34,483 nucleotides of DNA from IMG/VR virus record IMGVR_UViG_3300017517_000002, positions 1 to 34,483 of that record; one strand, given 5' to 3'. The position numbers were made by a program, and so were the translations under genes. The number at the start of each line of letters is the position of its first letter. Positions within the stretch are counted from its first letter, which is position 1. Positions 3,105 through 34,483 of this stretch are shown in pieces. Origin of the DNA: a virus. The notes under the pieces are model-generated. The model made no database searches. It saw only the letters and a list, made by a program, of their open reading frames with translations, and was not told the origin of the DNA.

Positions 3105-3392
3105 CTATGTTGTCTCTGCGGTATTATCAAATGCCGCACTCAGGTCAATGTCACTGCGTGGAGGCTCCGAATCAGTGATGATTGCAACCATGCGCTGTAT
3201 CTCGTCACTGGTGTGATTACCAGATAGCCAAAATGCAATCTCCATGCCTGCACTTTGCCCGTTCACATCCTCTGTGGGATGTGCTGCTGCAATCCCTTGC
3301 AACACCCATGCATCAGTGTCATTACTTAACGCTATGGCTGACACGCTGTCTGACTCTGGAATGATTGACGGAAATATGCGGTAATCAGCCAT
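3105..3392 (-). CDS. Hypothetical structural protein (95 aa)
   Basis: A 95-residue acidic protein starting MADYRIFPSIIPESDSVSAI. No membrane segment or recognisable motif. It contains a central 'AFWLSGNHTSDEIQRMVAII' segment and a Ser/Asp/Ala-rich C-terminus. It sits between two small connector-region genes, so a minor virion or assembly role is likely by position only. Confidence 0.6.
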   Translation of the reverse strand: MADYRIFPSIIPESDSVSAIALSNDTDAWVLQGIAAAHPTEDVNGQSAGMEIAFWLSGNHTSDEIQRMVAIITDSEPPRSDIDLSAAFDNTAETT

Positions 3393-3963: not shown

Positions 3964-5160
3964 TTAGAAGTTCAGCTTGGCCGCAGAATCAGGCTGATGA
4001 TATTGCACATCAAACTCTATTCTGGCGTTGATGGCCTCAAGGTCACGGATTGGGTCATCATATTCTTTCATCTCAATATCCCGGTACAAGTAGATTGCGA
4101 TATTGTCACGGTCATAGACAACCGCGCCAGTGTCACCAGCCGTGTCAAAGTTCCACGTTTCTGCACTTGCTGGGTCAAGCATGCCGTTGCTTGCACGGTA
4201 TCCATCAATGCCAAGCAGTGGGAATGCCACACGGTTGCGAATACCCTCATCGTCACCAAACTCATTGGCACGTGGGATAATCGAGTTGTTCTCTGCGGTG
4301 TCAAACAAGGTCTTGGTAAACTTCGGGTGCTGGACAACGCTGTCTGGCATGAAGTCTGCAAGCTCAACTGACTCAATGCCAGCGTTAATGCTTGCAGTCC
4401 CACGGTTATCCTCCGCGCTTGTGTCAACGTCGTTGCCGGCATCCTCAACAAGCGTGGTGATAAACGCGCGGTTGACTGCGTTCTCACACTGTCGGCCAAG
4501 ATATTCCATGTTCTGCGCAATCACGTCAACAAGGCTCTGGTTAAGCAACTCTTCTGTGGCTGCCATCCCAACACCATGCTTCGTGGTGTTCCATTCCACC
4601 GTATCATATTCGCCAGCGTCATCAGTGATTGCACCACCTTCGGCAACCTTTGGGGCAAACTCAAAGTCTGCACCACGTGGGTGGTCACCACGCTGTCGGT
4701 CAACGTTAATCACGGTGGCTGCATCACGCGCTATCTTGGCCTTGCGCGCGCCTTCTATAACTGTCTCAATAATCTCCTCACGAAACAGTGTGTCAAGGTT
4801 CGCAATACTGTCCTCAAACGCCAGTGCCCGCTTGATGGCGCGGTCAGAATGCACTTTCTTGGTTTCAAATGGTCCATCTGAGCTAAATGCCCCTTTCTCC
4901 ATCACACCAGAAAGCTCACGGAAAGCAGCGCTGTCCTCGTCAAATGCATACTGCTTATCAGGCTGCTGTCCAGGTGATTCCTTGCGGTCAATCCCCAGCT
5001 TGCGATATTCACTATCGTTGACCGGCCATGCACGGCCAACATCCTGTTCACTCAGTCCGCTTGGCACACGCGGGTGTGCAAGCATCAGACCGGCCAATCG
5101 CCAGTTACTATCTCCCTTTGCGAGTTTTGCAATCTCGCGTCGTGCTTCTATTTTAGACAT
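3964..5160 (-). CDS. Major capsid protein, HK97 fold
   Basis: 398 residues. An N-terminal charged helical region (MSKIEARREIAKLAKGD, about 1-110) precedes a shell domain. In the shell domain 'DTLFREEIIETVIEGARKA' reads like the spine helix, 'TKHGVGMAATEELLNQS' like the E-loop/P-domain border, and 'DNIAIYLYRDIEMKEYDD' like the late A-domain segment. Order after protease and decoration genes is the standard one. GGAGG lies 10 nt upstream of ATG 5160, one of the clearer Shine-Dalgarno sequences here, consistent with high expression. No T or G domain insertion is apparent. Confidence 0.85.
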   Translation of the reverse strand: MSKIEARREIAKLAKGDSNWRLAGLMLAHPRVPSGLSEQDVGRAWPVNDSEYRKLGIDRKESPGQQPDKQYAFDEDSAAFRELSGVMEKGAFSSDGPFETKKVHSDRAIKRALAFEDSIANLDTLFREEIIETVIEGARKAKIARDAATVINVDRQRGDHPRGADFEFAPKVAEGGAITDDAGEYDTVEWNTTKHGVGMAATEELLNQSLVDVIAQNMEYLGRQCENAVNRAFITTLVEDAGNDVDTSAEDNRGTASINAGIESVELADFMPDSVVQHPKFTKTLFDTAENNSIIPRANEFGDDEGIRNRVAFPLLGIDGYRASNGMLDPASAETWNFDTAGDTGAVVYDRDNIAIYLYRDIEMKEYDDPIRDLEAINARIEFDVQYHQPDSAAKLNF

Positions 5161-9790: not shown

Positions 9791-11394
9791 TATTGCTCAC
9801 CTGGTTCTGATTCTTCAAACGCTAATGCAGTGTCAACCACATCTGATAGATAGACTCTGTGGTCAGTCGGTAAATTATCTGGTGCTTCTATCTCACCCGA
9901 CGCATAGGCTTTGGCTTTCTCAAACACTCGCTCTTGAATCTCGTCCTCAAACCCACCCGGTCCTAAAGTAATAGGATTTTTTGGTTTTCCGTTTCTATAC
10001 CTGAAATTCCCACTGTCATGGTCAATGATTTTGACTTCATCATTTGCGTCAACTATCATATTCGCACCATGCAAGTCATTATTGCCTGCGAAATAACCTG
10101 CAGAAATAGTTTCAATGAATGACTCTTCCATTTCTGGTGTCATATTTATGGCTCTGGCATTTCTAAATGTTTGACCGCTAATTCCTTGTTTAACAACATG
10201 CTCCTTGCCCAGTGAGTCTGTAGCGATGGCAGTCTCACAAGTCCCTCCACCGAACGCTTCAACAACACGCGGCCCATGAATGTTGTTTTGCCGTGCCTCA
10301 AATGACCCACTGACAACACCTGTGCTTATGTCGTTATATGCCTCAACCTCTGTTGCAAAGTCGCGTGTGCCATCCTCATACTCAAGGATGCGCATACGGT
10401 CACCAGTCGTGTTGCCACCGACTATGCCTGCCTCTCTTGCATTCTTTGACATTGAGGCATGGTTAAATGCATTTGACAAGCGGTCATCAACAGACATGTC
10501 CTGCAACTCTGTTGTTGGGGTTGGAACTCCTATCTTTCGGTCAACATCTCTGATATTGTCCAACCCGACAGAAATCGTGTTACCATCTGGTGTGGTGATA
10601 GTCACCTCACGGTCATTTATTTCTTCAATTCGACCAGAAACAACCTCCAAGCTATTATTATCAAATACCTTAATTCCATCTGTTGGGCCTAAGTTCTCAT
10701 CGACAGGTCCTGGCAACCCAAGGTCCTCACCAACTTCAGCAGCCAACTCACCACGTGGTGCTGGTTCAAACTGCAGCTTGTCCTGTGGAATGATGCCGTA
10801 AATCTCATTTAATGGAACTTCCAGCGGTCCATCTGAGGTAATCATGCGCGCAGTGTCCTCGTCCTCCAAACCTGCGAACACACCAAACTTATACTCATAT
10901 CGTCCATCAACCAATCGCTCATGACCAAGCACTGCACCCTCATCTGGCAAATCATCGTCCTCAAAAACCTCTTGCTCGCTCATCAAAGCTCCAGCAGCTC
11001 TTTCTAACTGGGCAATATCACGGTTATCTATCTCACCGTCAACATACGCTTGCACCAGCCGTTCATCCAGTGGTGCCTCAACCTCGTCAGGCTGTGTCAC
11101 ACCATCACCATCCCCGTCCTCACCATCTTCGTCCTCACTAACCGGGATATAATAGAGTCCTCCACGGTCACCCTTAACGACGTTGGCACCTTCAGGTGCT
11201 TCTGACGGGTCTTGAATGCTCACAGCGTTGTCTGGCACAGCCAAGTCACGAAGTTGGGCTAAGGCTGCGTTTTCGCGGGCTTCTTCTTCCATACCGTCCT
11301 GTGCTAACCGCAGTTGGTCAATATGTGTCATTCGACTAACAACGCGCTGTGCAATCCGACTTGGCAGTTCTTCCACTTTATCAAAGTCAGTCAT
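9790..11394 (-). CDS. Minor head protein with kinase-like C-terminal domain
   Basis: 534 residues. Residues 39-84 are the module shared with the portal (LRDLAVPDNAVSIQDP, then GDRGGLYYIP), followed by an acidic linker. Two beta-rich segments occur around 135-190 and 240-280. From about 300 onward the pattern resembles the PI3/4-kinase or actin-fragmin-kinase-like superfamily: 'RDFATEVEAYNDIS' as the Glu-containing helix, 'GNNDLHGANMIVD' near 440 as the catalytic loop (Asp, His, Asn present), and 'VKIIDHDSGNF' near 455 as the metal-binding Asp loop. So a kinase-like enzyme is likely; the substrate is unknown. Overlaps the portal stop by 4 nt. Placement between portal and MuF suggests packaging in the head. 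Confidence 0.68.
   Translation of the reverse strand: MTDFDKVEELPSRIAQRVVSRMTHIDQLRLAQDGMEEEARENAALAQLRDLAVPDNAVSIQDPSEAPEGANVVKGDRGGLYYIPVSEDEDGEDGDGDGVTQPDEVEAPLDERLVQAYVDGEIDNRDIAQLERAAGALMSEQEVFEDDDLPDEGAVLGHERLVDGRYEYKFGVFAGLEDEDTARMITSDGPLEVPLNEIYGIIPQDKLQFEPAPRGELAAEVGEDLGLPGPVDENLGPTDGIKVFDNNSLEVVSGRIEEINDREVTITTPDGNTISVGLDNIRDVDRKIGVPTPTTELQDMSVDDRLSNAFNHASMSKNAREAGIVGGNTTGDRMRILEYEDGTRDFATEVEAYNDISTGVVSGSFEARQNNIHGPRVVEAFGGGTCETAIATDSLGKEHVVKQGISGQTFRNARAINMTPEMEESFIETISAGYFAGNNDLHGANMIVDANDEVKIIDHDSGNFRYRNGKPKNPITLGPGGFEDEIQERVFEKAKAYASGEIEAPDNLPTDHRVYLSDVVDTALAFEESEPGEQ
11144..11280 (-). repeat. 137-bp duplicated module, copy A (in kinase-like gene)
   Basis: Aligns without gaps, in the same codon phase, to 12415-12551 in the portal gene. 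By hand I count about 17 mismatches in 137 positions (roughly 88% identity). It encodes ARENAALAQLRDLAVPDN, then AVSIQDPSEAPEGANVV, then KGDRGGLYYIP. The high DNA identity implies a recent duplication or ongoing recombination between neighbouring genes. Confidence 0.93.
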
Positions 11395-14159
11395 TTTGCC
11401 ACCTCTGGACCACCGTATTGCTCATATAACTCTAACACTTCATCTGAAAAATCAACACCTCGTTCAAGTTGTGCCGAGCCAACTTCTGCAACAAACTCTG
11501 TTGCATTTGTTGCTGCATACGTACTCACCTCTTCTTCTATCAGTTGGCTTGTCTCATCATCAAACTCCACTGCCCGCAATTCATCTAAACCTAACTCTTC
11601 ACTTGATAGGACATTCTTTGTGTGTTTTGCGTGCATCATTTCGTGGTAAATACTACCCTCTGGTGTTTCAGTAGCTAAGAAACCTGCATCAAACTCTTGT
11701 TGACGTGTTTCCCTATCCACTTCATCCGGGTTCACATACAAACTTCGCTGTCCTGTGTGGTATGCAGCCCCTGCTGCACTCCCTACATCATCCTGTGGGG
11801 TGTCAGTGATAGTAAACAAATCTGCATTATCTATCCCTACAAGGGAATCAAATTCATTAAGCCCATTTATCATTACATCAACCTGATTCTCTGCCATTGA
11901 GCTGACACCGACTGAAACATTCTCTGGTAGGTTCGTTTCATCCAAAACACGTTGGGTTTTGGCATCCGTTTCATTCTCAATTTCTTCACTCTCTAACCCT
12001 TCCCGGGTGGTTAGCAGTTCCTCACCATCCTCTGTCTCATACAGAACACAATCTGTGTTTTCGTCATATGCCACCACTGTAGCAGGGTTTCCACTTGGCG
12101 ATAACACATCATCGCCAGCCGATAGCACTGCATCATCATCACCATCTACATCAGGTCCTTCGTCTGGTTCAACATCTGCACCAGGAACCTCAAAGTCGTC
12201 CAGCATATCATCATAAATAAGATATTCCTCACCAGTCTCTTCTTCTGTGAACCCCACCAACGTCCCTATTTCATCTTTCTCAGTTCCAACTATCGTTATC
12301 TCATCCCCACCCTTCAATACCTTGTCTCCGGCGCGCACCTTGTCCACATCAATGGTGCCATCTGGGTTTGACCGCTCTGTAATGTCCTCTGTGTCTGTTG
12401 CTTCTTCACCTTGCGGGATATAATACAGTCCATCACGGTCACCACGAACAATGTTGGCACCTTCAGGTGCCTCTGCTGGGTCTTGAATGCTCACCGCGTT
12501 GTCTGGCACAGCCAAGTCACGAAGCTTGGCCAAGGCTGCATTTTCGCGCGCTGTGTCAAACTCCTCAACCTTACCCTCTGCCCAGCGTTGCCCTGGGTCA
12601 CCACCCCACGCTTTCCACATCATCCGACCACAATCTGCCTTGGGTTCATCTGGGGATGGCTCATCATGCCGAGCAAAAAAGCTCTTCATCCTGTTGATTG
12701 TGTCCTCACTCAAGTTCTCACCATTGACAATCTGATTGGCGCGCTCCCACCCAACCTGCGTGCCACAATCATTCGGGTTGCCTGTCTCTTCTTTCCAGTC
12801 AAGCGCGTTCTGTGCTTGGGTTTGCATCCCTGCTGTTGGGCTTGTGTCAACGTCGCTAACTGCTAACACCCGCCCATCGCTAAAAAGTTGGTCTATGCCT
12901 CCACCCATGTCCTCTTCAGGTTGCTCCTGCTGTGCAGCTTGCCCAGGTGATTCATATGACTCTCCGAGTTCCTCATCCTCAACCTCTGACAGTCCCAGAC
13001 GCTCGCGAACTTCGTTGACTGTCATGTAGTCACCGACTGACTGCACTAGTGACGCTTTCTCAGTCTGGTCCTCCAAGAATGGCTCAAACACCACCTTCAT
13101 GTGCATGGTGTGGTCAAAGGGTGCGTAATCCCGAACAATCGGCTTGAGAAACTGCTCAATGAATTGTTCACTAAAGCGCCGTCTGTCTGCCTGATTCTGC
13201 AGTGACAGCAAGTCTTTGCGCAACTCTGCTGGCATCCCCGAGCCAAGGCCATCACTGCCTTCGTTCAGGAGTTCCACCGGAATGCCAAGACTGGTTGCAA
13301 GCATGCGCATATCTCGCTCTTGGATTTTCCCAAAGTCAACAGTGGCAGGTTCTTTCAGGTCAATATCCACATCTGGTCCAGTAACCTGCGTTTCACCCGG
13401 TCCAATCTTGGCAAGTCTATTACGAACTCGTCGCAACTCGGTATCGTTTAGTTGCGTAGCTCCTTCACGTCCTGCCCGCGCATGCACAAACGGATAGCCT
13501 ATGCGCTCAGTGGCTTGGCGCATGGCTTGCTGATTTGACCGGAATGTCTCAATCTCTTCTTCTGACCGCAAGGCTTCACTTATCCCGGTCTTGTCTCTAC
13601 CAGAGCTTTTGTTAAGCACAATCATGCCTATCTCATCTGGCTCAAACTGTGGTACGTCTCCATAGCTGCCGTCTAAATGTTGCTCCCAATACAGGATATC
13701 GCCATATTCGTCAGTGACAGGCAGCATGGTCCAGGGTTCAATCATCTCAATATGTGAGAAATTGCCTGTCTGTGTCTCAACAATTTCACCCAGCGCATAT
13801 GGATACCACAGGCAGTCCTCACCAAGGTCAAGCACCAAGTCATCAAGGTGTCCGACGTTCTCATGCAACCAGTCCTCCAAGCCATCATCCTCTGCCTGAA
13901 TGTCAATGCCAGTCCCAAACTTGATTAACGCTTTGCTATGGAATGCTTGTGAGACAATCCCGCCTGACTCACGCATCTGCTTAACGTCACGCATGTCACC
14001 CTGAGATATGTCCTGTCCGGAGAATGTGACAGAGGTGTCTGTGCCTGCACCCTCCACCTGCGTTTGTGGCTTGGCATTTAACTGTCGGCGCTTGGCGCTG
14101 ACATATTCAGATGCGTAACTGCGGATAGAAGAAAAAAGACCGCTATCGTTATCTGGCAT
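11391..14159 (-). CDS. Portal protein with C-terminal HExxH metallopeptidase-like domain
   Basis: 922 residues, about twice the usual portal length. Residues 1-410 are the portal: membrane-free alpha/beta with 'LGIPVELLNEG', 'QFIEQFLKPIVRDYAPFD' and a long helix with Gln/Arg-rich residues. Residues about 480-530 carry the phage-associated 'MKSFFARH ... WKAWGGDPGQRWA' motif. Residues 537-582 are the module duplicated in the next gene. An acidic linker with two small beta units (around 600-740) leads to residues ~770-922. There IYHEMMHAKH gives an HExxH zinc motif at 839-843, and TEFVAEVG (Glu 888 or 892) offers a third ligand. The portal anchors packaging and the head-tail junction; the peptidase domain is inferred from the motif. 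Confidence 0.8.
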   Translation of the reverse strand: MPDNDSGLFSSIRSYASEYVSAKRRQLNAKPQTQVEGAGTDTSVTFSGQDISQGDMRDVKQMRESGGIVSQAFHSKALIKFGTGIDIQAEDDGLEDWLHENVGHLDDLVLDLGEDCLWYPYALGEIVETQTGNFSHIEMIEPWTMLPVTDEYGDILYWEQHLDGSYGDVPQFEPDEIGMIVLNKSSGRDKTGISEALRSEEEIETFRSNQQAMRQATERIGYPFVHARAGREGATQLNDTELRRVRNRLAKIGPGETQVTGPDVDIDLKEPATVDFGKIQERDMRMLATSLGIPVELLNEGSDGLGSGMPAELRKDLLSLQNQADRRRFSEQFIEQFLKPIVRDYAPFDHTMHMKVVFEPFLEDQTEKASLVQSVGDYMTVNEVRERLGLSEVEDEELGESYESPGQAAQQEQPEEDMGGGIDQLFSDGRVLAVSDVDTSPTAGMQTQAQNALDWKEETGNPNDCGTQVGWERANQIVNGENLSEDTINRMKSFFARHDEPSPDEPKADCGRMMWKAWGGDPGQRWAEGKVEEFDTARENAALAKLRDLAVPDNAVSIQDPAEAPEGANIVRGDRDGLYYIPQGEEATDTEDITERSNPDGTIDVDKVRAGDKVLKGGDEITIVGTEKDEIGTLVGFTEEETGEEYLIYDDMLDDFEVPGADVEPDEGPDVDGDDDAVLSAGDDVLSPSGNPATVVAYDENTDCVLYETEDGEELLTTREGLESEEIENETDAKTQRVLDETNLPENVSVGVSSMAENQVDVMINGLNEFDSLVGIDNADLFTITDTPQDDVGSAAGAAYHTGQRSLYVNPDEVDRETRQQEFDAGFLATETPEGSIYHEMMHAKHTKNVLSSEELGLDELRAVEFDDETSQLIEEEVSTYAATNATEFVAEVGSAQLERGVDFSDEVLELYEQYGGPEVAK
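12415..12551 (-). repeat. 137-bp duplicated module, copy B (in portal gene)
   Basis: Partner of 11144-11280, encoding LRDLAVPDNAVSIQDP and GDRDGLYYIP at portal residues 537-582. It lies exactly between the portal-associated part and the extra C-terminal enzyme domain, as it also precedes the kinase-like domain in the other gene. That placement suggests a connector or anchoring element. Confidence 0.93.
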
Positions 14160-14385: not shown

Positions 14386-14625
14386 CTATCGCAACCGTTC
14401 AACTATGCCACGCGCAATTGCATCAATCTGTGTTGACTCCAACCTGACTGTCTCTTTGCCATCACTGGCTGACTGCACGTCATCAAGCTCAACAAACTTG
14501 CGGGTTGTTGGCGGATTGTCACTGCAACGCTGCAGAAACTCACCCCATGTCTCACTGTCCTGTTTGGATTGCTGTGCATCATGCCATGCCTCAACTGGAA
14601 CTCGTAGCGTTTTGTATTCTGTCAT
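14386..14625 (-). CDS. Small RHH-like protein (79 aa)
   Basis: 79 residues, starting MTEYKTLRVPVEAWHDAQQS. The beta strand YKTLRVP, followed by a helix and 'ETWGEFLQRCSDNPP', follows the layout of short haloarchaeal ribbon-helix-helix or antitoxin-like proteins. It probably binds DNA as a dimer. Transcription probably starts upstream at the promoter copy at 14678-14697, so its mRNA would begin with an 8-codon mini-frame (14630-14656). Confidence 0.6.
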   Translation of the reverse strand: MTEYKTLRVPVEAWHDAQQSKQDSETWGEFLQRCSDNPPTTRKFVELDDVQSASDGKETVRLESTQIDAIARGIVERLR

Positions 14626-14629
14626 TGTG

Positions 14630-14656
14630 TTATCGGGTTTGTGATTCCATCTGCAT
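14630..14656 (-). other. Eight-codon mini-ORF, remnant of a duplicated start cassette
   Basis: ATG 14656 then MQMESQTR and TAA at 14630. It sits about 25 nt downstream of a TATA-like box, exactly where the genes at 15021 and 16138 begin MEMEA. It therefore looks like a truncated fourth copy of the promoter-plus-start cassette, or a leaderless leader peptide in front of the gene at 14625. Confidence 0.55.
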
Positions 14657-14675
14657 ATGGATGTAGAATGCTATG

Positions 14676-14697
14676 CAACATAAGTATTGCTAAGTAA
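14676..14697 (-). promoter_or_regulatory. Promoter copy R4 (TTAGCAATACTTATG)
   Basis: On the minus strand the region reads TTACTTAGCAATACTTATGT. It matches the CTTAGTAAGACTTATG element of the other copies with few changes. TATA-like TTATGT lies about 25 nt upstream of the mini-ORF start at 14656. Confidence 0.6.
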
Positions 14698-15021
14698 CTA
14701 TTCTTGGCGGGTCTGGTAGTGGTCTTGCACCAGTTTTCCGGCTGCTTCCATATCTGTGGCAAACCCAACCAATTCCAGGCTTTCTGCCAGGAGGATGCTC
14801 ACGCCTCTGCAGTAGTAATGCCCCATGCCAGACACAATCTCCTCAACCGTGCCGTTGTCGTCAGTGCAAACAATTTGTTTGCGACCATTTACAAGCGAAC
14901 CCGACATGCCATAGACCCACTCATAGCCTGCTACTGTGTGGACAACTGCATTCTCAATGTTCGCTTTGTTAAGGTCTGTTACGTCGCTTACTTCTGTCTG
15001 TTGTTGTGCTTCCATCTCCAT
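14698..15021 (-). CDS. Hypothetical accessory protein sharing N-terminal MEMEA cassette (107 aa)
   Basis: 107 residues. The first codons (MEMEAQQQTEVSDV) match the start of the gene at 16138 and, less fully, 16512, at both DNA and protein level. The rest (VAGYEWVYGMSGSLVNGRKQ, GHYYCRGVSILLAESLELVG) is unrelated to them, and I recognise no family. The ATG lies about 25 nt from a TATA-like box, so the mRNA is probably leaderless. Its stop abuts promoter R4. Confidence 0.7.
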   Translation of the reverse strand: MEMEAQQQTEVSDVTDLNKANIENAVVHTVAGYEWVYGMSGSLVNGRKQIVCTDDNGTVEEIVSGMGHYYCRGVSILLAESLELVGFATDMEAAGKLVQDHYQTRQE

Positions 15022-15064
15022 ATAATTGTAGTACCCGTGTCTACATAAGTCTTACTAAGTTAGG
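15022..15064 (-). promoter_or_regulatory. Promoter copy R1, leaderless
   Basis: Minus strand: CTTAGTAAGACTTATGTAG, then ACACGGGTACTACAAT and ATATGGAG. The TATA-like TTATGTA is centred about 25 nt upstream of ATG 15021, the spacing expected for an archaeal leaderless transcript. CTTAGTAAG is itself a 9-bp palindrome and could be an operator. It lies between the recombinase stop (15068) and the gene at 15021. Confidence 0.68.
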
Positions 15065-15067
15065 ATA

Positions 15068-15778
15068 TTAACGTGAATAGATTTGCCGCAATGCGCGGTC
15101 AGTTCTGTCACCAGAGGTTTGTAGGTATTTTTCTGCAGTCTGCATTTTGGCCCAGCCAAACATTGCCTGTAGTGGTGCTGGAGCAAGACCACGGGCAACA
15201 TGGTGTGTAGCTGCTGTAGCACGCAACCCATGTGGGAATATTGCATCTGTGTCAAGCTCTGCACATTCCTCTGCCACCCGGTCCACTCTACGATTTACTG
15301 ACAACCGTGAGCGTGGATATCGCTTATACTCAGTAAAGAAACGTTCAATGACTATCTCTGTGCGTGCATCAAACCCATATGGGACTTTCCGAACGCTGTT
15401 CTGTGTCTTAGGGTGCCATCGGGTTTGCAATGCCTCTTCCCTGCTAATAGGGCCATGCGCTGCTTTGTCCTCTGCACTACGGACACAGTAGCCACACACA
15501 CCACCATCACGCCCTTTGTCGCATGGGTCATGACGTGGCACATGAATCATTTGTGTGTTCATGTCCACCCATGACCGTCGCATATGCGCTATCTCACCAG
15601 CACGAAAGCCAAGCCGTCCTGCTGCTGTAATCACAAACTGTGCCTCTAAGCGATACGGCTGGTCTAACCGATGGCTTGCCTCATAGAGCAACTCAAACTC
15701 ACGCTCTGTCAGCGCTGCCTCACGGCTGTGTCTGCAGCTATCGCTAGTCGTCGCTGGAAACTCAATGGGATGACCCAT
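15068..15778 (-). CDS. Compact tyrosine recombinase/integrase
   Basis: 236 residues. Catalytic residues are visible in order: Arg59 in GFRAGEIAHM, Lys131 in VRKVPYG, His183 and Arg186 in HGLRATAATH, Trp209 in MFGWAKMQ (the H/W position) and Tyr218 in AEKYLQ. An insertion, DPCDKGRDGGVCGYC (Cys86, 95, 98), probably binds zinc and is typical of haloarchaeal family members. Only about 20 residues precede the catalytic core, so the usual N-terminal core-binding domain is missing or minimal. It could mediate integration or dimer resolution. No att site was identified. It begins 3 nt after the gene at 15782, so it is probably transcribed from promoter R2. Its place between terminase and portal is unusual. 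Confidence 0.85.
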   Translation of the reverse strand: MGHPIEFPATTSDSCRHSREAALTEREFELLYEASHRLDQPYRLEAQFVITAAGRLGFRAGEIAHMRRSWVDMNTQMIHVPRHDPCDKGRDGGVCGYCVRSAEDKAAHGPISREEALQTRWHPKTQNSVRKVPYGFDARTEIVIERFFTEYKRYPRSRLSVNRRVDRVAEECAELDTDAIFPHGLRATAATHHVARGLAPAPLQAMFGWAKMQTAEKYLQTSGDRTDRALRQIYSR

Positions 15779-15781
15779 TGA

Positions 15782-16138
15782 TTAGTGGTCGTAAAAGCAG
15801 AGGACGTTAAAGTCGTGTGGCTCTGCAATGAATGCGTCATTCCCACCAGCCAAGCCTCCTACCTCTGGCGTACCACCGTTTTGTCCTAATGCAAATGAGA
15901 CTGCGCTCTCTCCACCTGTCAATGCGCGAGTCCAGCCGTATAGTGCTGTGCAGACAACTGTGGGAGCTGCAATGCCAATCTGCTGCTCTGCTGTCTCTGC
16001 ATCCCATAGCACCACATCTGATTCATCGTGTCCAAGGTTGCTGACCAGCGTTTGTAGCGCTGTCTGGGTCTGTCGTGCTGCTTGTTTGGCGGTCTGTGCG
16101 TCACTTACGTCTGAGAGTTGTGCTGCTTCCATCTCCAT
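15782..16138 (-). CDS. Hypothetical accessory protein upstream of recombinase (118 aa)
   Basis: 118 residues starting MEMEAAQLSDVSDAQTAKQ, sharing the start cassette with the gene at 15021. The later sequence (VVLWDAETAEQQIGIAAPTV, GWTRALTGGE, FALGQNGGTPEVGGLAGGND) has a Gly-rich stretch and no motif I recognise. It lies 3 nt upstream of the recombinase start, suggesting coexpression and possibly a partner or regulator. Confidence 0.7.
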   Translation of the reverse strand: MEMEAAQLSDVSDAQTAKQAARQTQTALQTLVSNLGHDESDVVLWDAETAEQQIGIAAPTVVCTALYGWTRALTGGESAVSFALGQNGGTPEVGGLAGGNDAFIAEPHDFNVLCFYDH

Positions 16139-16196
16139 ATGATTGTAGTACCCGTGTCTACATAAGCCTTACTATCTTAGTCTCTGAACCTGCAGT
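16139..16196 (-). promoter_or_regulatory. Promoter copy R2, leaderless
   Basis: Minus strand: CTAAGATAGTAAGGCTTATG, then TAGACACGGGTACTACAAT and ATATGGAG, nearly identical to R1 downstream of the TATA-like box. The box is about 25 nt before ATG 16138. Upstream it shares GGTTCAGAGACTAAGATAG with R3, including what in R3 is the end of the neighbouring gene, so the duplicated block carried flanking coding sequence. Confidence 0.68.
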
Positions 16197-16269
16197 CAAA
16201 GAAAAACAGAGCTTCGCTTAGTAGTTGCCGGAGGCTTTCAAACCAGTCTGTTGTAGTGCGTCCTTGATT
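16177..16269 (-). pseudogene. Open remnant ending in RFRD, no start codon
   Basis: Directly after the TAG that ends the gene at 16270, the same frame stays open for 30 codons to TAA 16177. It reads TTTDWFESLRQLLSEALFFF and ends DCRFRD. The last four residues and the bases around them match the end of the zinc protein at 16556-16771 (YYRFRD). No ATG, GTG or TTG lies within it. It is probably a relic of the duplication that copied the promoter cassette, or a former C-terminal extension of the gene at 16270. Confidence 0.45.
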
Positions 16270-16512
16270 CTATGCTTCTGTTTCTGCTGCAATGCCCGAT
16301 AGCAATTTTTCACAGCAGTCAACTGCCTCCTCATTGCGCATGTCAACATGCGGTGTGTTTGCAATCGCCTCAAGCGCAGGAATCAACACCTCATTCACCA
16401 ATTCTCTTTGTAAGTATGGGTGTTCTGCCTGCAGCGCAATCTCCAATTCTGCCGAGTCAATACCACTGTTTACTGCGTCTGCCATCGTGTCTGCGAGTTG
16501 TTCTGCTTCCAT
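16270..16512 (-). CDS. Hypothetical acidic helical protein (80 aa)
   Basis: 80 residues starting MEAEQLADTMADAVNSGI, a shorter version of the shared start cassette. It is Glu/Ala/Leu-rich and predicted helical (ELEIALQAEHPYLQRELV, VLIPALEAIANTP). No family recognised. Promoter R3 lies directly upstream. Confidence 0.65.
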   Translation of the reverse strand: MEAEQLADTMADAVNSGIDSAELEIALQAEHPYLQRELVNEVLIPALEAIANTPHVDMRNEEAVDCCEKLLSGIAAETEA

Positions 16513-16578
16513 TACGTATAATTGTAGAACCCCTGTCTACATAAGTCTTACTATCTTAGTCTCTGAACCTGTAATACC
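16513..16578 (-). promoter_or_regulatory. Promoter copy R3
   Basis: Minus strand: CTAAGATAGTAAGACTTATG, then TAGACAGGGGTTCTACAAT. Its TATA-like box is about 31 nt upstream of ATG 16512, giving a leader of only a few bases. It overlaps the last codons of the zinc protein gene at 16556. Confidence 0.62.
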
Positions 16579-16771
16579 GGCTGTCACATTCAGGACACAC
16601 CCAGACACGCATCTGCATTGCCTGGTCTGACACCCACTGCACATCTGTCTCACACAGACTGCCACAGTCACAGCGATGTGGGTCAGGCAACCAAGGCACC
16701 AAGCGGTGTGTCTCTTGGCGCGCTTTATCCGTCGTGTCTGCTATCGCATCCTGTATTGGTCGGTCTACCAC
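16556..16771 (-). CDS. Zinc-ribbon protein after terminase (71 aa)
   Basis: 71 residues from GTG 16771, overlapping the terminase stop by 7 nt. Two Cys knuckles, CDCGSLC (about 34-40) and CPECDS (about 59-64), form a zinc ribbon; the C-terminus is YYRFRD. Coupling to the terminase suggests a packaging-related or DNA-binding role, but no specific function can be read from the sequence. Confidence 0.7.
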   Translation of the reverse strand: MVDRPIQDAIADTTDKARQETHRLVPWLPDPHRCDCGSLCETDVQWVSDQAMQMRVWVCPECDSRYYRFRD

Positions 16772-18081
16772 AGGTCATCACGGTTGCCATAGGAGCCACT
16801 GAACATTGTTTGCGACACATCCGCGCCTCCATGATTGACAACCAAGCTCAATGAGTCAATCATGTCGTCATGTTGTGAGTCCGGCCATGCAAGCAGTTGC
16901 TGATGCAGAGCATCAAAAGTATCGTCACCCCAGTCAATAAACTGCACCTTGCCTGAGCTTATTGGAATACTCAGGTCAATTATCTTGTCTGCTTTGTTTC
17001 GTGTTGTCTGCAATGGCGTGGCACGCAAGCCACGGTCTTGCAACTCCTGCTGCAACCATCGTTGTGACTGATTAGCTTCGACAACCACACGCGGGTTATC
17101 GCATTGTGCTGCAATTGACTGAATGAATTGCACGCCCTCTTGCAGAGTCATGCCACGGCGCTGGATGGTATCTGCAATAAATATCTTGCCTTGTGAGGGA
17201 TGCGGATAGGCAACCGTCACACCCCAATAATCAGTGTCACGCTCTTGTGCAGCCTGTGCGTCTGCTGTGGCTGCTGGGTCCACACCAATGACTGGACTCA
17301 GGAAGTCAGGCACCACGTCAGGTTGCACGAGGCTAAACATATCACGGCTGAATGTGCCACCACCAATCTGCACAAAGAGTCCCTCAACCTCCTGCTGTCG
17401 GATTGCCTCTGGCAGGTCCATCATATCCTCGTGATAATCTGACGGTGTGTGCGGGTTGGCATATGTTGGCACACCTGTTATCGCCAAGGTGTCTGGTGAC
17501 TCAAAGACAGTGCCAGCGCCATAGTCGTATTCCTGCGTCTCACGTTCATCAACGAAAAACTCCCATGTGTGATTGCGGCCCTTGGGTGTGGTTGTCACAT
17601 AGCCATTGCGAAAGCCACCAGTCCGCAACCGCTGCATGAGAATCTCGCGCGCTCTGGGAGGCACTTCTGCCTCTTCGTCAATCCACCACCACGACAGGTT
17701 CAGTCCCTTCAGCCTCTCAACTGTGCGCCGGTTATCTGCAGACAGGATTAATGCGCGGCTGCCATTCGGCGCATGCACACCGGGTTCAACAGCATGCGCG
17801 CTTTGGAACTCCCACCCCATCTCAAACAACCCAAGGTCACGCATCTCATTGATGATAACGTCCTGCACCATCGTCCTGGTAGGTGCGACAATCGCACCAA
17901 GCTCACCAGGGTTCCAATCCAGCATATTCCGCATCGTTCGACTAATGCCGGCAAAGGTCTTGCCTGCGCCAACGCCAGACACATACGCAACATATCGGCT
18001 TTTGGATTTAGCAAACTTACTTTGCTCTGGCGTTAAATCAAATTCGGTAGGCTCACTCTGGCTCTGTGAAGTTAAAGACAA
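16765..18081 (-). CDS. terL: Terminase large subunit
   Basis: 438 residues if TTG 18081 is used. An ATPase domain has Walker A YVSGVGAGKTFAG, Walker B LSWWWIDEEAE and a TTTPKGRNH coupling motif. The nuclease domain shows the RNase H-like acidic residues: IGVDPAATADAQ, VVVEANQSQRW and DSQHDDMIDSL. It cuts and translocates concatemeric DNA into the procapsid. TTG 18081 is chosen because an exact AGGAGGTGA lies 5 nt upstream, whereas GTG 18090 falls inside that Shine-Dalgarno. Length is normal for the family. Confidence 0.92.
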   Translation of the reverse strand: MSLTSQSQSEPTEFDLTPEQSKFAKSKSRYVAYVSGVGAGKTFAGISRTMRNMLDWNPGELGAIVAPTRTMVQDVIINEMRDLGLFEMGWEFQSAHAVEPGVHAPNGSRALILSADNRRTVERLKGLNLSWWWIDEEAEVPPRAREILMQRLRTGGFRNGYVTTTPKGRNHTWEFFVDERETQEYDYGAGTVFESPDTLAITGVPTYANPHTPSDYHEDMMDLPEAIRQQEVEGLFVQIGGGTFSRDMFSLVQPDVVPDFLSPVIGVDPAATADAQAAQERDTDYWGVTVAYPHPSQGKIFIADTIQRRGMTLQEGVQFIQSIAAQCDNPRVVVEANQSQRWLQQELQDRGLRATPLQTTRNKADKIIDLSIPISSGKVQFIDWGDDTFDALHQQLLAWPDSQHDDMIDSLSLVVNHGGADVSQTMFSGSYGNRDDLW

Positions 18082-18481
18082 TTCCCTCACCTCCTACATC
18101 CACTTTGTCAGCTTGCTTTTCTTTGTTGCCACTTTCCTGCAGCCATTCCCACTTCATCTTGCGCACCTTAGCTGCCTTATACCACTTTCCCTGCTCCTCC
18201 AACTTGCGCGCGGACCTATCAAACCCCAAGTCGGTTTTTATCTCGTCGTCTCGGCCAATGTTCGTGCGCAGATAATCCTTGACGATGTTAATGTCGTCGC
18301 TTAGGGTGGATTTCACATTCCCATATCTGTCTTTGAGGTTAGTTGGTGTTATCTCAGAGTATGGGTCACGGCTTTCTTTCCACAGCCGAACAATCTCTGC
18401 GCGTTTTTGATATGCCGTGTACTCCGTCGGGCGTTTATCGGTTGGCACATCTACTGATTCATAGTCTGGATGTTCGGTCAT
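18053..18481 (-). CDS. Terminase small subunit (probable)
   Basis: 142 residues, overlapping the large subunit. It holds a helix-turn-helix-like region (YSEITPTNLKDRYGNVKSTL / SDDINIVKDYL) followed by a charged helical tail (KWYKAAKVRKMKWEWLQESG). That is the layout of small terminases, which recognise the packaging site. Assignment relies on motif and on direct coupling to the large subunit. It starts 6 nt after the methyltransferase gene. Confidence 0.75.
   Translation of the reverse strand: MTEHPDYESVDVPTDKRPTEYTAYQKRAEIVRLWKESRDPYSEITPTNLKDRYGNVKSTLSDDINIVKDYLRTNIGRDDEIKTDLGFDRSARKLEEQGKWYKAAKVRKMKWEWLQESGNKEKQADKVDVGGEGIVFNFTEPE
18087..18095 (-). promoter_or_regulatory. Near-perfect Shine-Dalgarno for terminase large subunit
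   Basis: AGGAGGTGA on the minus strand is fully complementary to the 3' end of archaeal 16S rRNA. It lies 5 nt before TTG 18081, inside the small subunit coding sequence. Most other genes here are leaderless or start in ATGA overlaps, so this site stands out and decides the start. Confidence 0.8.
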
Positions 18482-21683: not shown

Positions 21684-21808
21684 GACTGTGCGTCCTCGTC
21701 AGACACATCGAACTCCTGCAGCAGTGCATCGTGCCAGGTGCGGTCACCCTTGTTTTTTGTTAGCTGCTCAAACTCGTCATCGCTGAATACCACGTTAATG
21801 CTTTTCAT
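21680..21808 (-). CDS. Tiny RHH-like protein (42 aa)
   Basis: 42 residues from ATG 21808, starting MKSINVVFSDDEFEQLTKNK and continuing GDRTWHDALLQEF. The strand-helix-helix layout with 'SINVVFSDDEFEQL' is the ribbon-helix-helix pattern of small haloarchaeal regulators. Overlaps at both ends are of the ATGA type, which supports it as a real gene despite its size. Confidence 0.68.
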   Translation of the reverse strand: MKSINVVFSDDEFEQLTKNKGDRTWHDALLQEFDVSDEDAQS

Positions 21809-22113
21809 TGTGTTAACCTGTCCTCAAACTGCCGTGCAAGCTCCTCACCAAACTGTGTCATGCGCTCACTCTCGTAATGCACTGTGACTGTGGCATTGTG
21901 TCCTGTGCCACACACCATACCTGCAAGTGGCTCCACAGTGACTCTTGGCCCACCAACTGTCATGACAAGTTCCAACCCAACCACCTTGTCACGGCTGACG
22001 GTATATTCTATGTCAAGCATGTCAAGCTGGTATGGGTCCTCAATATCTGCTAACCGCTCTGCCTGACTTTCGACTAACTCAAATAGGTCTGCTTTCTCTG
22101 TCTTTTGCTGCAT
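21805..22113 (-). CDS. Conserved haloviral hypothetical protein (102 aa)
   Basis: 102 residues, starting MQQKTEKADLFELVESQAER. A short helix is followed by 'DMLDIEYTVSRDKVVGLELV' and 'VGGPRVTVEPLAGMVCGTGH', a predicted beta fold. No function known to me. It is the first gene after the promoter at 22147-22164, so it leads the small-gene operon down to 19789. Confidence 0.62.
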   Translation of the reverse strand: MQQKTEKADLFELVESQAERLADIEDPYQLDMLDIEYTVSRDKVVGLELVMTVGGPRVTVEPLAGMVCGTGHNATVTVHYESERMTQFGEELARQFEDRLTQ

Positions 22114-22146
22114 TGTCTTACCTACTTAGATGGTGGACTGCTGATG

Positions 22147-22164
22147 ATATAAGTCTTACTAAGT
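22147..22164 (-). promoter_or_regulatory. Promoter with CTTAGTAAGACTTATAT
   Basis: Minus strand: ACTTAGTAAGACTTATATC. It is identical to R1 over CTTAGTAAGACTTAT. The TATA-like box is about 39 nt before ATG 22113, leaving a short leader with TAGGTAAG. It is the same regulatory element as in the accessory island, so these operons may be co-regulated. Confidence 0.6.
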
Positions 22165-24561: not shown

Positions 24562-24614
24562 TAGTAGTAGTAGTAGTAGTTGTACTAGTACTAGTAGTAG
24601 TAGTAGTAGTAGTA
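24562..24614. repeat. (TAG)n trinucleotide repeat with ACTAGTACTAGT core
   Basis: About six TAG units, then TTGTACTAGTAC, then about seven more TAG units on the plus strand. The core is palindromic (ACTAGT). The repeat lies just upstream of the RHH regulator promoter. Confidence 0.92.
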
Positions 24615-24880
24615 CCAAAACGAAAACGACAGCTACAGCGGTTGTGCTTGCTGTATCGTGTTTTCTCTCTGTGGAGTCACACTGTTGTGTGGCTGAAAGT
24701 GCAAAACAAAAAAGGATTGAATCTTTCGGCAACTGCGTGTTTTTCTGCGTCAATCAACCCGTCTCAACAACAGTGGATTGTCTGCTGTCTCATTGAGTTG
24801 AGACACACACTGTCCACAGATTGGTTCGTTCTGATAATAACCGTGGATTGTTTTGGACGTTTTGCAGACTGAGCAAATCA

Positions 24881-33973: not shown

Positions 33974-34483
33974 TTATAGTGTTGCGTTTTCTGTTAGTGT
34001 GCCATCTATATTCAAATTACCGTTGGTAAGGTCCATCACCATGCGCCGATTCCCATTCCGGTCGGTGATGATTAACTGGTCGTCAGTCTGTGCGTTAATC
34101 CCTGCCTGTTGCCCGATAGCGATTAATCCCGATGCCTGATTATTGCGGATTGCCGCAACACCAATCCCAATATTATCACTGCCCATCGTCGTTGGGTCAG
34201 CAAGGCCATCACCGCGTGCGGCTGCAAGCCCAGAGGCGGTCACATCGTTGCCCGTATTGTTCGCTGCGGCTCTAAACCCACTGGCGGTGACACCAAAGCC
34301 CGTATTGTTCTCTGCGGCCTGAAACCCACTGGCGGTGACATCCCCGCCCGTATTGTTCTCTGCGGCCTGAAACCCACTGGCGGTGACATCCCCGCCCGTA
34401 TTGTTCTCTGCGGCCTGAAACCCACTGGCGGTGACACCAAAGCCCGTATTGTTCGCTGCGGCTCTAAACCCACTGGCGGTGAC
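33974..34483 (-). CDS. Tail fibre/adhesin, C-terminal part (continued from 1-843)
   Basis: Frame open from the right end, continuing the VTASGF-x-AA-x-NNTG repeats (about five units at 34240-34483), then 'NIGIGVAAIRNNQASGLIAI', 'QLIITDRNGNRRMVMDL' and 'TNGNLNIDGTLTENATL' to TAA. The end is a non-repetitive beta cap, as at the tip of trimeric fibres. See the entry for 1-843. Confidence 0.75.
   Translation of the reverse strand, partial: VTASGFRAAANNTGFGVTASGFQAAENNTGGDVTASGFQAAENNTGGDVTASGFQAAENNTGFGVTASGFRAAANNTGNDVTASGLAAARGDGLADPTTMGSDNIGIGVAAIRNNQASGLIAIGQQAGINAQTDDQLIITDRNGNRRMVMDLTNGNLNIDGTLTENATL
34240..34483 (-). repeat. 48-nt in-frame tandem repeat array, right end
   Basis: Five copies of the same 48-nt unit as at 1-252; some units differ in one to four positions (for example ACCAAAGCC or ATCCCCGCC at the variable end). 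The last 18 bases are identical to bases 1-18 of the window. Confidence 0.92.

Follow-up and report, generated by a model that had tools for sequence, protein, structure and literature searches.

A probable promoter block copied with the first codons of a gene in a variable small-gene island of a halovirus

Introduction

Repeated start-proximal promoters are already known in haloviruses from HF2 (Haloferacalesvirus), whose class I and class II intergenic repeats are promoters with measured activity (PMC8707807), and from HGTV-1, where a repeated promoter motif has been likened to the PeSL mobile regulatory cassettes of T4 and gene shuffling suggested (PMC3950731, citing Sencilo 2013 and Arbiol 2010). 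Related arrangements are the start-associated sequences (SAS and ESAS) of Cluster K mycobacteriophages (PMC3203893) and the invertible tail-fibre module of phiCh1 with its recombinase Int1 (PMC6471424). Here, we describe a block comprising a promoter and first codons that is repeated near four starts (R1 to R4) in the viral record IMGVR_UViG_3300017517_000002, the whole of which (34,483 bp) is referred to as the window. The question addressed is how small viral genes of obscure origin become expressed.

Results

The block and its extent

The 16-mer CTTAGTAAGACTTATG, allowing up to 3 mismatches, has five matches in the window, all on the minus strand, which carries the long genes, when shuffles predict 0.07. 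The matches and the blocks around them are as follows.

R4 block, 16490-16577, minus strand: original, syntenic promoter after the small zinc-finger-type gene, with the first codons of gene 16270-16512; 16-mer at 16540-16555
R3 block, 16112-16192, minus strand: copy of R4 with a scar of the zinc-finger-type gene, the promoter and the first codons of gene 15782-16138; 16-mer at 16161-16176
R2 block, 14985-15075, minus strand: promoter and first codons of gene 14698-15021; 16-mer at 15044-15059
R1 block, 14628-14700, minus strand: diverged copy upstream of a ribbon-helix-helix (RHH)-like gene; 16-mer at 14679-14694
R5, 22148-22163, minus strand: 16-mer only; promoter before gene 21805-22113, orthologous to L007 2917
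R4 gene, 16270-16512, minus strand: 80 aa, orphan, MEAEQLADTMAD...
R3 gene, 15782-16138, minus strand: 118 aa, orphan, MEMEAAQLSDVSD...
R2 gene, 14698-15021, minus strand: 107 aa, orphan, MEMEAQQQTEVSD...

The pattern TGTAGACACGGGTACTACAATTATATG, with the same tolerance, matches R2, R3 and R4 only, with 0 expected, and self-BLAST gives 89% identity over 84 nt for R3/R4, 86% over 91 nt for R2/R3 and 87.5% over 64 nt for R2/R4. This likeness takes in the part holding the TFB-recognition element (BRE) and TATA box, then TGTAGACACGGGTACTACA, the start codon and 6-15 codons of the gene. Over the first six shared codons, 17 of 18 nt are equal between R3 and R4 and 16 of 18 between R2 and R3; afterwards the likeness fades, a weak similarity between R2 and R3 reaching approximately codon 15-20. 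The spacer ACACGGGTA is identical between R2 and R3 and variable from virus to virus. Past the N-terminal 19-27 residues or so, the proteins behind R2, R3 and R4 have nothing in common. A preliminary description of this DNA had proposed a repeated block in front of four otherwise unrelated genes, with a likeness extending beyond the TATA box, and for R2 to R4 the data bear this out on each count.

The R1 copy is diverged yet in register with the other three (CTTATG-12-CTACA-3-ATATG-3-ATGGAA), and its alignment against each of R2, R3 and R4 beats all 500 shuffles, the margin against R3 being slight. Of the four starts originally read as MEMEA, MEMEA, MEA and MQME, the last does not belong to a gene; it opens a short open reading frame (ORF) closed by TAA, and the gene behind R1 (14386-14625) begins 4 nt past its stop in a different frame. 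Coupling of this ORF to the start of the RHH-like gene is possible, as is a relic of a lost gene.

ORF MQMESQTR, 14630-14656, minus strand: eight codons from the start position of R1; 4 nt separate its stop from the ATG of gene 14386-14625

A scar of the zinc-finger-type gene

The sequence CAGGTTCAGAGACTAA lies directly upstream of the box in both R3 and R4. At R4, it codes for the end of the zinc-finger-type gene (..YRFRD-stop), whereas the R3 copy, located downstream of the R4 gene, is noncoding.

Small zinc-finger-type gene (CxC...CxxC), 16556-16771, minus strand: after the terminase gene; conserved syntenic neighbour, matched at 13 loci
Scar in R3, 16177-16192, minus strand: CAGGTTCAGAGACTAA, equal to the 3' end of the zinc-finger-type gene in place at 16556-16571; noncoding in R3

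Both sites are identical at 15 of 15 nt in the scar window compared, and at 25 of 25 when the adjoining GATAGTAAG, the start of the box, is included. The noncoding identity between R3 and R4 is 33 of 36 nt from the box to the spacer and falls to 0 of 3 past the scar. Since the end of the zinc-finger-type gene is in place at R4 only and noncoding at R3, R4 is the source, and R3 was copied from it recently. We take the copying as recent because a noncoding scar should not be kept by selection, and therefore the unrelated bodies of the two genes do not come from drift after a duplication. The idea that the block moved as a unit is thus upheld, because the codons are included and R3 retains 16 nt from the gene upstream of R4.

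Promoter and operator-like dyad

The block has a BRE (TAGTAAG) and a TATA box (CTTATG), with 28 nt from the start of CTTATG to the first ATG in R1 to R3. In the mapped promoters of HF2, the TATA box starts at -26 and the BRE spans -33 to -37 (PMC8707807), and the spacing in the block agrees with this. Because of this agreement in the TATA distance, the transcripts of R1 to R3 would begin at the ATG and be leaderless. For R4, the preliminary description needs correcting: its start lies 33 nt from CTTATG.

Between the TATA box and the start lies a dyad, TGTAG-N9-CTACA.

Operator-like dyad of R4, 16523-16541: TGTAG-N9-CTACA
Operator-like dyad of R3, 16144-16162
Operator-like dyad of R2, 15027-15045
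Degenerate dyad of R1, 14662-14680: two mismatches

Perfect dyads number three in the window (0.19 expected), four in L103 (IMGVR_UViG_3300019925_000001; 0.06 expected) and two in the relative L020 (0.00 expected). All nine are exactly 19 bp long, although spacers of 5-11 were allowed in the scan, and between viruses the arms are constant while the spacers differ. Because the arms are kept, the spacers vary and the length is fixed, the sequences suggest that the dyad is an operator for a protein. Such a protein would obstruct initiation, and the position of its site suggests regulated (repressible) expression over plain activation. An alignment of 14 sites has TTATG throughout, and the TAC belonging to the right half-site is kept in at least 90% of them. 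In L103, the RHH gene has one of the four dyads directly before it.

RHH-like (beta-alpha-alpha) gene, 14386-14625, minus strand: behind R1, at the same locus in relatives; proposed regulator

This gene is the only regulator-like gene found to be conserved in the locus. The model of its product has the order strand-helix-helix (strand at residues 3-8, helices at 10-19 and 26-35), with a predicted local distance difference test score of about 88 over residues 11-30 and 69 for the whole model. Among ten homologues, NCBIfam YlcI/YnfO is matched weakly by four (best E 5e-5) and Pfam VAPB_antitox weakly by three (best E 6e-4). The window protein itself matches neither family. An RHH strand reading LRVP occurs in the three viruses with perfect dyads, and six relatives with other strands lack perfect dyads (Fisher p 0.012, uncorrected for relatedness). 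As a hypothesis, the RHH-like protein is the likely ligand of the dyads and would place all copies under joint control.

Relatives and synteny

Approximately 20 relevant haloviral contigs were gathered via terminase profiles and with the block and the RHH protein as queries. By terminase, the nearest named relatives are Halorubrum tailed virus BLv36 (57% identity) and HRTV-29 (45%). A promoter of the same design is found in L016, L020, L069, L076 and L079, right after the zinc-finger-type gene or right before an accessory gene X, with the RHH gene next, and in L034 it leads directly into the RHH gene. L020, L069, L076, L077 and L079 each have CTTATGTAG a single time in the record, invariably at this site. 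Some other relatives have different promoters at the same place. From the promoter positions in L016, L020, L069, L076, L079 and L034, the ancestral order was likely zinc-finger-type gene, promoter, X and RHH gene, with X differing among viruses.

The check proposed in the preliminary description turned out positive, as other haloviruses carry the same promoter type before different genes. In HRTV-29 and BLv36, whose terminases are strongly divergent, a 56-nt promoter is 96% identical and the genes behind it differ. In L103, four blocks precede genes of 97, 69 (RHH), 69 and 208 aa, and two of these blocks share AGCCATACC within the first codons.

Shared 56-nt promoter of BLv36/HRTV-29: L008 19872-19927, L062 10643-10698

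Judging from these sequences, in the relatives the promoter is usually fixed and the gene behind it replaced, and gene movement matters as much as promoter movement.

In the viral_contigs set, an exact pattern scan for the narrow block gave no match. A scan for CTTATGT-N11-CTACA-N3-ATATG gave three, which were discarded as low-GC chance matches. The wider pattern TTATGTAG-N4-GGGT-NN-TACA gave 12 matches, among which four contigs (L016, L020/L070, L069 and L076) are true relatives by position. In 391 haloarchaeal chromosomes, the block is absent except for two matches with 3 mismatches, no more than the yield of a reversed control pattern. The R2 block searched against phages had matches at chance level only, and the DNA of the island showed no similarity to phages and plasmids.

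Genes of the island and other features of the record

The R1-R4 site is a variable small-gene island bounded by the zinc-finger-type gene and the portal gene. In the window, the order is zinc-finger-type gene, R4, gene, R3, gene, recombinase, R2, gene, R1 and RHH-like gene.

Terminase large subunit gene, 16765-18090, minus strand
Tyrosine recombinase gene, 15068-15778, minus strand: relative of phiCh1 Int1 (about 48% identity), following the R3 gene
Portal gene, 11391-14159, minus strand: weak PHROG match; homologue of the long gene that relatives have at the portal position

The HRTV-29 counterpart at this last position is annotated as portal. In the recombinase, the catalytic residues are in place by sequence (R58, K123, H182, R185, W208 and Y217). 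In 391 haloarchaeal genomes, the R2 gene had no homologue, in a search run without a positive control, and the R3 gene had one marginal, unchecked match (E 7.5e-4). RNA families and tRNAs were sought in the region and none was found.

R5, overlooked in the preliminary description, shares the BRE/TATA part alone with the block. It was considered as a fifth cassette and rejected, being a separate promoter common to L007. A second conserved promoter type is seen at 22114-22163 and at L007 2917, L006 2879 and L037 644. In the relatives it reads CTTAGTAAG-TATTAAGTG...CTTACTAACTAAGTG, and it precedes other genes or, in L007, a homologue of gene 21805-22113. The repeated promoters of the relatives L017, L021 and L028 are quite different; in L021, two different genes are preceded by exact copies of a 32-bp sequence that includes a TATA-like box (3111-3142 and 4207-4238).

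Elsewhere in the record, tail-fibre-like 48-nt repeats occur at 1-343, 410-745 and 34130-34473, at both record ends and in one orientation; the record probably begins and ends inside a single repetitive gene, in a genome that is permuted or closed into a circle. The stretches 979-1082 and 1946-2049 are 73% alike over 104 nt, the latter at the start of gene 1489-2049, and are possibly paralogous fibre-region genes. The portal gene (922 aa) has an internal 150-nt direct repeat (11132-11281 and 12403-12552, 85-88% identity), and in BLv36 the region matching the repeat-bearing part is divided between two genes. Also, an intergenic run of TAGTAG/TACTAG repeats at 24562-24615 is possibly an origin or regulatory region.

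Discussion

We consider the block to be a regulated, leaderless or near-leaderless viral promoter that is copied with its first codons and puts acquired genes under one switch, a reading to which we give a probability of roughly two in three. The original site would be R4, between the terminase and zinc-finger-type genes and the accessory genes, where relatives have a single copy. The copied segment would begin at the 3' end of the zinc-finger-type gene and run into the first accessory gene as far as about codon 6-15, with R4 giving rise to R3 and then R2, and R1 being older or more decayed. With each copy joined to an unrelated gene, newcomers would gain the same promoter, operator and start region. 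The R3 scar records the copying, and from it we infer the route. The simplest one would be illegitimate recombination between viruses having loci of the ancestral order, in which the end of an X gene is joined to the end of the zinc-finger-type gene of another closely related genome, leaving stacked promoter-X units and a scar. The RHH-like protein of the locus would then bind the dyads and control the copies together.

Several observations weigh against this proposal. The bodies of the R2 to R4 genes are orphans, which leaves their acquired origin and earlier context conjectural. R1 is a weak copy, and its start codon opens just the eight-codon ORF. In R4, the presumed original, ATACG replaces the ATG at 28 nt, so that the start at 33 nt from CTTATG would leave a 5-nt leader. 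The RHH-like protein of the window had no match in a Pfam search made with it alone, and a fold search gave no significant match, the best being a chain of the F-plasmid relaxosome (E 3.1). The RHH-operator pairing is based on few, related viruses, and one perfect dyad (L020 3057-3075) falls within the RHH coding sequence, so not every dyad marks a promoter. Finally, some genes of HGTV-1, an unrelated virus, begin with ATGGAAG as well. First-codon similarity among different viruses is partly a general bias, and once these starts were seen, similar first codons elsewhere were dropped as proof of movement.

The tandem position of the units on the same strand, and the weak likeness between R2 and R3 to approximately codon 15-20, would be expected if the R2 to R4 genes were paralogues from tandem gene duplication, with bodies that diverged while the promoter and N-terminus remained constrained. 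We regard this as unlikely: the noncoding scar, identical in R3 and R4, dates the copy as recent, yet the bodies have no detectable similarity, and the proteins differ in length (80, 107 and 118 aa). A little less probable still is that the similarity reflects cis-regulation only, convergent or conserved, in which one regulator and the host transcription machinery constrain the promoter and start and nothing is copied. It would account for dyad arms and a TATA box kept across divergent viruses with varying spacers, and for the ATGGAAG starts recurring in unrelated viruses, and it may apply to R1. The R3 scar, the identical spacer of R2 and R3 and the shared codons 3-15 are left unexplained by it.

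The recombinase gene between R3 and R2 raises the alternative of a site-specific cassette system, in which an Int1-type enzyme recombines the blocks in the manner of an integron or of the phiCh1 invertible module. This enzyme has its catalytic residues, the direct repeats R2 and R3 enclose the R3 gene and the recombinase gene, and the dyad is a short inverted repeat. However, the dyad arms are only 5-7 bp, and the tail-fibre genes on which phiCh1 Int1 acts are inverted (PMC6471424), whereas the block repeats are direct. The ends of the phiCh1 inversion are unlike the block, and no block-like repeats flank the gene in the other Int1 relatives compared (L064, L065, L086 and L087); on these two grounds, the blocks were rejected as recombinase sites. 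Moreover, in L103, with its four blocks, such a recombinase was not found by search. This system thus appears improbable, to about the same degree as cis-regulation only.

Returning to a promoter copied with its first codons, the copied unit, its source site and the copying scar can be read directly in this locus, which would make gene capture, regulation and regulator-operator co-change testable in a simple system. As a tentative extension, which we hold to be possible and hardly probable, RHH strands and dyads could form lineage-private pairs; captured genes spliced to the copied unit would join the regulon, and the pairs would define immunity or exclusion groups, similar to phage stoperator-type systems. 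VapB-like proteins of archaeal tailed viruses have been proposed as lone antitoxins (PMC8651126), and these proteins may partly be transcription regulators of their own locus.

Compared with the known systems, the block resembles the HF2 repeats in being a short repeated intergenic, start-proximal sequence of a halovirus with BRE and TATA at the standard distance, in its conserved position among relatives and in the suggestion of virus-encoded regulators. However, neither the TATA (beta) motif of HF2 class I, CTTTAAGT, nor the gamma motif CGTCTNNTAGAG, at whose G lies the transcription start site, is present in the block. The description of the HF2 repeats mentions neither shared first codons nor a 19-bp dyad of the TGTAG type. 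Their promoter activity has been measured, whereas that of the block is predicted.

In HGTV-1, around 20 different small genes of a single genomic region are preceded by a TATA-like box, about 28 nt from the ATG, with which an inverted repeat is associated (PMC3950731). The block shares with HGTV-1 and PeSL a TATA box and an inverted repeat before unrelated genes, and the same promoter before different genes in related genomes. At the HGTV-1 starts inspected, the inverted repeat CTCCTCGTGGCACGAGGAG is upstream of the TATA box, whereas the dyad of the block lies between the TATA box and the start; there is no long stretch of shared codons and no sequence match to the block. The block also departs from the PeSL-type layout, in which a stem-loop stands where the preceding gene ends, upstream of the promoter.

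The SAS/ESAS are likewise repeats tied to the starts of unrelated genes, and some of them come with inverted repeats that differ in sequence from one phage subgroup to another. Unlike the block, they are bacterial, with a 13-bp element just upstream of the start, 17-bp inverted repeats upstream of this element and no TATA promoter. With phiCh1, the locus has in common a homologous recombinase of the Int1 family, with its catalytic residues, beside repeats, but the block repeats are direct and not inverted, unrelated in sequence and outside the tail-fibre genes. What is new in this locus is the copied codons, a scar that gives the direction of copying, an operator of fixed length downstream of the TATA box and a candidate RHH regulator encoded in the locus itself.

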